NCBI RefSeq assembly: GCF_964204645.1
Contig: NC_134025.1
Coordinates: 10,669,001 to 10,733,000 of the forward strand
Length of the DNA: 64,000 bases
Direction: 5' to 3'
From: Tubulanus polymorphus
Taxonomy: Eukaryota; Nemertea; Palaeonemertea; Tubulaniformes; Tubulanidae
Shown: in pieces, positions 36-3,000 of the stretch
How positions within the stretch are numbered: position 1 is the stretch's first letter
Layout: each line of letters begins with the position of its first letter
Translations under genes and position numbers: made by a program
Notes under the pieces: model-generated
Database searches by the model: none
Told to the model about the DNA's origin: nothing
The model's input: the letters and a program-made list of their open reading frames with translations, nothing else

Positions 36-3000
36 TTACGACGAGCGATAGAGTAGAATTTTCTGAGAACAAGTTTTTCCAACGAGCGACGCGTACTGTT
101 TCACCTCCATTTTATCGCGAACGGCTGTGCCTTTGAATTTCAACGCTTTGTAAACGGAATACGGCATCATTTGACGTTCGTACAATACCATCACTTTATC
201 TACGTCGATACTGCCGTTTGGATCTTCTGCGAACGAGAAAATTTATCACTGTTACGAAAACAGAAAATCAAGACGTGTCTCCCCCATCACGTGGACACAA
301 AAACTACAACTAGGGAGGTATAGCGAGATAAAACTTACCTTTCCCTGGTTTTTCGAATCGGGAATACTTATTGATATGTAACAGTGGTTTACACTCTTCG
401 ATAGGATGCCAGGTATATACTTCTGGACATAGCAGATAAGATGGAACGTACTGACCCTACAGAAGACAAGGATCATCGATCAGGATTACGAAAAAAACAT
501 TCGAAAACAGTGACAATTATAGATCAACTGTTATACTCGTTTCCAGTACCTTGTACGTCATTTTGGGACAGGAATGTATGTAGAAGCCGAGATAGTAGTA
601 AATCAATTCCGGATCTTGTTTATTCAATGCTCTCGTGAATGCCAGTTCTCTGTAAGAAAAACGTACTAAAACTTTTATTTATGAAATGATTTTTGGAGTG
701 AAGTATTGATTCTTAACAGTTCACTGATTAATTGATTGCGAAGTGCGCGTTCAGCTGTTTATACACGATAGAGACGTGCGAGAACCAACACAAACTCAAT
801 GGGCTGAGATAAAAGGTAAGTTACCGCTGACAGCGAAGACTCCACATAATCCCATAAATGAACAAATCATAAGATTTATCATTCTATGCTCACTGACCTA
901 GTGGTATACCCTTTCAGTGCATCTTCACCACAGTGCAATGTATAAATCGGTTATGGACTTTGCTAGTACACCGCACTGCAGTGTATTGATGTTATTAATA
1001 TTTAGTTTTAATCTGTATTGAAAGATGTCTAACTAAGTGAAATATTAGTTACTAACGATACACTGCACTGTGGTGTAGCGGTATGCCCGTTATTCGACGC
1101 ACTGGGGTGGAATTTTTATAAATTATCTCCAGCACTTTCAGGAATTAATTAAGGAATTAACCGTAGGTTTCTCACATACTAGACTGATAATCCATGATTT
1201 CAGTTTCTTTGTCAACAATACCTCCAATAGTTTCAATAGTTAAGTAGTCAATATATACCTTAGTGCAGAGAATGTTCCCGGTGATAAGAATGCTTGGTCA
1301 GGATCGTAAAACAGATAGACGGACGATATACATTTTGGTAGAATATCGATCACTCCAACAATGATCAGTTTACCATCGAGCCAGTACTGTTGATGAAACG
1401 ATCCATATCCGCTTTCGACGCCTCCCTCATTTTTGTAGAATGGCTGAAAAAATTAGGTAAGTCTTTCAACCGAGTGAAAATAAAAGCCGCTAGTTTCGGT
1501 TCGGACTTCAAAATTCCTGAATGAGACTCATCAAATCTTCAAGTGTCGATTGGTCGATTATTTGTGGGATTTCTACCCTGCACCACCCTCCACCCAGTAG
1601 TCTCTACGCTATCGCCTAAGCTTTCCACCGTGATAATAAATATTTTTACTGAGCATACTACAGGGTTGGATCCAGAAAACATTCTCAGAAACTAACAAAC
1701 CTCGCTTAAGTTTTCAAGATGGGTCGCCGGGCTTATACAATTGATTCATCTTTTTTCAAATTTCGAAAATAGATCCCAAATTTTTCTGGAGGAATTTAAG
1801 GGGGTTCACTGGCAACTAGCGAAAACCCCTGCATCTGCCCAAGCGCTAGGGGATTGTTTTATTTTCAACTGAAAATATAACACTTAATATCAAAGCGTGG
1901 ATACAGTATATATTTCACCAACTCCGTATGTGATATATCAACTGGAGGTTCAGACATTGTTTACACCAAATTATTGTCGAGCACAATACTACATAGTGAA
2001 CATGTATACAAAACCCTATCGGTTTTCCATAATTCATAATCGTGACAAAAAACTAACAATTGAATAAAATGTCAAATAATCAATTAGCTGAATTTCGATG
2101 AAGGCATCCTTTAAAGAGGATTTTAGAGGTACAGATATCCATCAATGAATTTAATAATATAACATGAATGATTTCCTGAACTTTGTTCCTCAAAACTTGA
2201 CCTATGTCAGAATGCTGTAGCAACAATATAATTTCAATAATCTATGCCGTATATACATACTGCTAAACTATGACAAACTGTTAATCACCAGGCCCAGTAA
2301 TTCAAAAGTTGCTCAGAGTTATCCAGTCTTTTTATGTTAAAATTCAAAATGCATGTATGTAGAAATTAATTTTGTCTCAAACAATGTCTATTTTTCGTTT
2401 AATCATCTCCTTTCTCAGCAGATAAAATTTACCACTGAACCACTGCGAAAGGCGTGCAGCCTTCATGCCGCACGGGCAGCGACTAACACGATGTTCATAC
2501 CTGTAAAGGAGAAGTTACAAGGAAGTTTATGTACGCGTGCAGGTCGCAATCGGACTCAGATTCATTGTGTACATTCATCTGATACTTCTTAAAAACGGCG
2601 TGCGACTCGTGAAACGTTGCCAGGAACCGTCGGTCCTTCATACTCGACGGTACCAGCTTAATCTGCGCAGACACGACGAACACCGAAAAAAAAGAGATAC
2701 AATGGATTACAACATACGTATGGGGGCGGTAACTACCTGCAGCGGCGAGTTGACGAGGAATCTTCGGAATTGACGCTCCGACGGTTTCGATGGCGGGTCG
2801 TTGTGAATGACCATTTGATAGCGTTTGTACAACTGATAGGTTTCCTTGAACGTGCGTTCGAAGTCTTCATCCGGCGGATTTGAACGTACAAGCTTAATCT
2901 TGAAACCGAAAAGAGCGTTTTAATAAGAAAAAAAATAACAAATCATGCAATTAAGTTGAAGCTTAAATCAGTTCAGTTTGAATTGTTGTCATCATTGAAA

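Follow-up and report, generated by a model that had tools for sequence, protein, structure and literature searches.

The ATE1 gene described here carries two adjacent homologous exons, 6A and 6B, which probably act as an alternative-exon switch: one exon would be admitted to each message through crowding of the branch point between them, and the choice of exon would tune the enzyme near its tRNA and substrate pocket. The pair is a further case of a type of switch that is already known, this time apparently from a different branch of animals. It lies in a window of 64 kb, by which we mean the whole stretch of DNA that was analysed.

The complete ATE1 coding region is located on the minus strand at 36..7379 and, as judged from the gene model and the match to human ATE1-2, contains 10 coding exons and one duplicate. 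In the gene model, all ten introns (10/10) have GT/AG ends, and the CDS is 1389 nt long, encoding a protein of 462 aa, whether 6A or 6B is used. The identity of the gene as ATE1, proposed earlier in a sequence-only reading of this DNA, is confirmed by a whole-length match to human ATE1-2 (PDB 8tzv), with E 2.8e-136 for isoform A and 2e-134 for isoform B. The N-terminal CGYC and CC motifs are aligned with the human protein, and the ATE_C domain is present. Compared exon by exon with human ATE1-2, isoform A is identical at 9/27 residues in exon 1, 19/21 in exon 2, 30/54 in exon 3, 21/54 in exon 6A, 41/61 in exon 7, 23/34 in exon 8, 23/39 in exon 9 and 5/19 in exon 10, counted over three stretches of the human alignment plus four residues, which leaves exons 4 and 5 uncounted and covers exons 1, 3 and 10 in part. 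Exon 6A thus stands below most core exons in its identity to the human enzyme, yet is not the lowest.

The gene appears as a single copy in the searches made. The ATE_C profile, run against the 268-Mb genome with 4 candidates scored, gave three matches at E <= 0.001, all of them in ATE1 exons 7, 8 and 6A, and a genome search with the 6A peptide returned 6A and 6B as the sole matches. As the matches of both searches are confined to one gene, no second ATE1 copy was found by them in the 268-Mb genome. Pattern matches to ATE1 relatives were confirmed in 0/9 cases in viral contigs and in 0/93 in prokaryote contigs, and Rfam gave no match at gathering thresholds in the 64-kb window. A search of the assembly for COX1 likewise found none.

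Exon 6A occupies 2737..2898 and exon 6B occupies 2501..2662, both on the minus strand, and in the gene model they are separated by an intron of 74 nt with a U8 run (2663..2736, minus strand). The pair is flanked by two constitutive exons of the same strand and gene model, both in phase 0: exon 5 upstream (3597..3686), which ends in ...HKLE, and exon 7 downstream (1259..1443), which starts with PFYKN. The sequence-only reading had described two tandem phase-0 exons of 162 bp, with the ends IKLV...SPLQ and a 74-nt intron, one starting with KLVRSNPP (6A) and the other with KLVPSSMKD (6B); the coordinates, length and phase were verified, and both start types were recovered in the DNA. Exon 6A (IKLVRSNPP...SPLQ) is the more conserved copy, reaching 27.7 bits against Pfam ATE_C, where the cut-off is 25, and it matches fungal ATE1. 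Exon 6B (...SPLQ), which encodes an acidic loop, is the more diverged copy; it scores 18.1 bits, below the same cut-off of 25, and does not match fungal ATE1 at E up to 10.

The two peptides are identical at 24/54 residues, and their similarity is beyond chance, because none of 100,000 shuffles reached the BLOSUM62 alignment score of 112. The synonymous sites are saturated (pS 0.92) with a dN of 0.56, and the third codon positions agree in 17 of the 54 codons. When neutral evolution was simulated 2000 times to the observed third-position divergence, a mean of 5.5 identical residues was left; 24 were kept in 0/2000 simulations, and an open frame was kept in 153/2000. Saturated synonymous sites, combined with a kept peptide and a kept frame, point to an old duplication whose peptide has been kept by purifying selection.

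As adjacent homologous exons in the same phase, 6A and 6B can be interchanged without loss of frame, and their use would be mutually exclusive. Their lengths are also multiples of three, so a message with both exons (516 aa) or with neither (408 aa) would remain in frame, as all combinations do, and would escape decay. A frame that is open in every exon combination would also suit a different account, in which both exons are constitutive, the enzyme then being 516 aa long with the segment doubled, or in which 6B is a dead copy. We regard this account as very unlikely: the human and yeast enzymes carry the segment only once, 6B retains its core residues as well as its open frame, and the joining of 6A to 6B would demand a distance of no more than 39 nt between donor and branch point.

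This distance follows from the unusual make-up of the short intron. At 74 nt it is the shortest intron of the gene, the other nine ranging from 91 to 2432 nt. Its last adenine before the terminal CAG is at intron position 39, and the adenine-free run before the AG measures 33 nt, as against 14 nt or less in the other nine ATE1 introns. Since there is no adenine between position 39 and the terminal CAG, an adenine branch point in this intron could be no further than 39 nt from the 6A donor. This upper bound, which holds for adenine branch points only, is under the threshold of about 50 nt that PMC7969005 reports for the simultaneous recognition of a donor and a branch point. In the same source, the branch points between the mutually exclusive exons 4a and 4b of OGDH were mapped at 25-41 nt from the donor, and PMC5740500 applies the same 50-nt criterion to human exon pairs. 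The threshold is vertebrate-based, and we infer that it is valid in this animal. Insects splice very short introns, shorter than the 74-nt intron considered here. With the last adenine at 39 nt from the 6A donor and the threshold at about 50 nt, the suggestion of the sequence-only reading that so short an intron could sterically enforce exclusive use gains support.

The introns taken as controls offer a site further from the donor. Four more introns of ATE1 are shorter than 320 nt, and the last adenine that keeps 17 nt or more from their 3' ends is at positions 73, 141, 74 and 95. In resolved short introns of myosin genes from this genome the corresponding positions are 66-278 in 12/12 cases, the shortest of these introns being 84 nt. 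For the myosin control, 77 of the 91 match rows were entered, and 12 neighbouring pairs with gaps of less than 320 nt were resolved by GT/AG ends and frame; the pairs were picked for their short gaps and are no sample of all introns, and one of the 12 (297 nt) scored poorly. What the control introns from ATE1 and myosin genes show is the availability of a donor-distant site, and not its use. The AG-free zone of the intron between 6A and 6B, by comparison, is no distinguishing mark. Between its positions 3 and 73 the intron lacks AG, a zone of 68 nt; intron 8-9 matches it with 69 nt, and the zone of intron 5-6A is 61 nt.

On these data, exon 6A would be unable to splice straight to 6B, every adenine branch candidate being 39 nt or less from the donor of 6A. 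Instead, 6A would be joined to exon 7, which is 1293 nt away, or exon 5 would be joined to 6B, which is 934 nt away, with a distant branch point. The closeness of the adenine candidates to the 6A donor would therefore leave exactly one of the two exons in each pre-mRNA. We consider this distant-branch-point mechanism the best explanation for the exclusive use of 6A and 6B. It resembles the known pairs of alpha-tropomyosin and of OGDH (4a/4b), where an adenine branch point is likewise forced to within about 50 nt of the donor and is followed by a U-rich tract. The present case differs from them in gene and in animal group, and its branch point is a predicted one.

The human ATE1 gene is reported to achieve exclusivity by other means, namely competing RNA structures among its introns (review PMC11802352). 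An account of the present pair in which competing RNA helices impose exclusivity, as the R1/R3/R4 elements do in human ATE1, has this precedent in its favour; we nevertheless judge it improbable. The best helix between the 74-nt intron and the upstream intron was equalled in 32/100 shuffles, that between the 74-nt intron and the downstream intron in 48/100, and that between the upstream and downstream introns in 7/30, while local folding (-128.0) was no better than that of shuffled sequences (mean -129.3). A test by coarse single-sequence energies thus detected no competing helices beyond shuffled controls among the three introns of the pair; short conserved helices that carry no excess energy would escape such a test. 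The steric device proposed here, branch-point crowding, perhaps differs from the human one.

The swapped segment can be placed on the known structure of the yeast enzyme. In the alignment, exon residues 18-53 pair with yeast ATE1 residues 164-197, and yeast residues 170-178 correspond to exon residues 24-32. For the yeast complex, PMC10115844 places the main contacts with tRNA at 109-146, a region that falls outside the swapped exon in the alignment. The same work names residues 170-178, at the end of helix h, as an additional tRNA-contact site, with a note by its authors on limited resolution, and reports that helices h and i shift toward the substrate pocket upon tRNA binding (PMC10115844). 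The last part of the swapped exon is assumed here to be helix i. From A to B, the change at exon residues 24-32 is mild (YKRYQMVIH to FKKYQMNVH). The loop that follows, exon residues 33-43, has a net charge of 0 in A, of -4 in B and of -3 in human ATE1-2, and the acidic loop is the main change between the two copies. The swap would thus exchange helix h and the part following it, near the tRNA and the substrate pocket, with the neutral loop giving way to one of charge -4 in B. Through this exchange, the 6A/6B switch may tune the coupling of tRNA binding to the choice of substrate, a role that we infer for the loop. Mouse ATE1 isoforms have been reported to differ in target preference (PMC6212499), and that paper also mentions another group that found similar specificity among isoforms. 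The position of the pair on a tRNA-responsive helix offers a concrete hypothesis for how isoforms might differ in their choice of substrate.

A possible degenerate third copy is present in the intron upstream of 6A, at 3305..3352 on the minus strand. It scores 50 against 6A, a value reached by 0/1000 shuffles of its own intron, and the next best place in a scan of the window with 6A scores 45. Against the human exon its score was reached in 11/1000 shuffles, and against 6B in 242/1000. Its DNA alignments were not significant, and with a profile of five sequences it had an E of 2.8 over the window, ranking under an unrelated place at 60662-60745 (E 0.32). These results are suggestive only of a decayed exon copy at this place.

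The segment encoded by the pair is the same as that of human ATE1-2 at chain residues 273/274-326, where the alignment begins at residue 2 of 6A and at residue 1 of 6B and runs to residue 54 of each. The sequence-only reading had the pair matching the vertebrate exon 7 pair, which is partly right, as it holds for the protein segment. Mammalian ATE1 exons 7a and 7b are reportedly 129 bp long (in a description of 1999), against 162 nt here, so at least one boundary would differ, by 33 nt in all, and the differing boundary is presumably the 3' one. Exons 7a and 7b, like 6A and 6B, are adjacent homologous exons for the same ATE1 segment, and ATE1-2 is the version with the acidic loop, as is B.

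Exon identities and trees speak to the origin of the pair with some ambiguity. The human ATE1-2 exon segment is identical to A at 21/54 residues and to B at 18/54, while A and B share 24/54; B and human ATE1-2 have Pro5, Cys39 and the acidic loop in common. Likelihood topologies were compared for 6A, 6B and one human exon type (that of the PDB), with two fungal sequences as outgroups. The topology grouping A with B (p-AU 0.54) was best by 0.27 log units, and it ties with the one grouping B with ATE1-2 (p-AU 0.49); the topology grouping A with ATE1-2 is disfavoured by the AU test (0.008), not by SH (0.31) or KH (0.16).

We lean, at slightly better than even confidence, toward a duplication that arose on its own among lophotrochozoans and converged with those of vertebrates, fly and nematode. 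The grouping of A with B has the highest likelihood, although by 0.27 log units only, and the identity between A and B is the highest of the three. The difference between 162 nt and the reported 129 bp also argues for an independent origin, and the possible decayed third copy nearby would suit local birth and death of exons. Convergence has itself been argued for ATE1: PMC9741552 names it as one of the gene families in which vertebrates, fly and nematode all have tandem duplicated exon substitutions. The tree, however, does not separate an independent origin from a shared one, and B is like ATE1-2 in its loop charge and in Pro5.

A single ancient switch is a real but somewhat less probable origin. 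Here the pair would descend from the same duplication as mammalian 7a and 7b, A and B would be the two mammalian types, and the boundary would have shifted later. The topology grouping B with ATE1-2 is not rejected, while that grouping A with ATE1-2 is the disfavoured one. The shared Pro5, Cys39 and acidic loop (-4 and -3, against 0 in A) argue for a shared origin or for parallel tuning, and the order of the exons would agree as well, the mammalian order being A-like first and ATE1-2-like second. Against such an origin, A and B are closer to each other than either is to ATE1-2; with mammalian exons of 129 bp, both copies would have had to shift a boundary in step; and PMC9741552 uses ATE1, with fly and worm included, to exemplify convergence. 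The same survey accepts that 7 of the 42 human-fly events have a common origin, and its text does not name them.

With ATE1 pairs already published for fly and nematode, finding one in an invertebrate is in itself no novelty. Ate1 of Drosophila and ate-1 of C. elegans, both from invertebrates, are likewise listed with tandem duplicated exon substitution (PMC9741552). For molluscs and annelids, no report of tandem ATE1 exons was present among the matches listed, in which subscription papers are thinly covered. The pair would add another great animal branch to the ATE1 exon pairs of vertebrates, fly and worm, and with a further branch a tree of exon copies could test whether the switch is old and single or was invented repeatedly. 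A bolder and rather doubtful proposal is that a switch between a neutral and an acidic loop in the tRNA-responsive segment is as old as the bilaterians. Both lophotrochozoans and vertebrates would have kept it as a pair of types, with a replacement of the splicing device, which would be branch-point crowding in the present animal and competing RNA helices in mammals. If the same pair of isoforms were kept by different splicing devices, selection would be preserving the isoform pair and not the device.

The host had been taken for an invertebrate, which is supported by a Hox set that suits a lophotrochozoan, probably a mollusc or an annelid. Contig C6 carries, at 5318-5635 kb, ten Hox-type homeodomains on one strand within 316 kb, and these look like an intact lophotrochozoan Hox cluster. 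Their order on the contig is, as we would assign the types, Post2, two with a UbdA peptide (of the Lox4/Lox2 kind), Antp, Lox5, Scr, Dfd, Hox3, Hox2 and Hox1. On contig C4, at 4125126-4126944, a single myosin gene has four tandem matches that cover almost one and the same part of the myosin head profile, starting at its positions 112, 119, 119 and 121 and all ending at 152; they probably form a cluster of mutually exclusive exons, of the sort described for lophotrochozoan muscle Mhc genes (PMC3912159).

Within the window, an exon like that of branched-chain keto acid dehydrogenase E1 beta (BCKDHB) lies at 11138-11536 on the plus strand, the strand opposite to that of ATE1, and is upstream of that gene. 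On the minus strand, an open frame of 432 codons at 25164-26459 contains an NTP_transf_7 domain (E 8.7e-154), and we take it to be of the TENT5/FAM46 type. Another open frame on that strand, at 36818-37336, has a sub-threshold match to FAM176 (29.3 bits, with a cut-off of 31.5). Successive frames at 14221-14710, also on the minus strand, repeat a peptide motif (STPPGDH... twice and LTTII... three times) and are perhaps a decayed tandem repeat.
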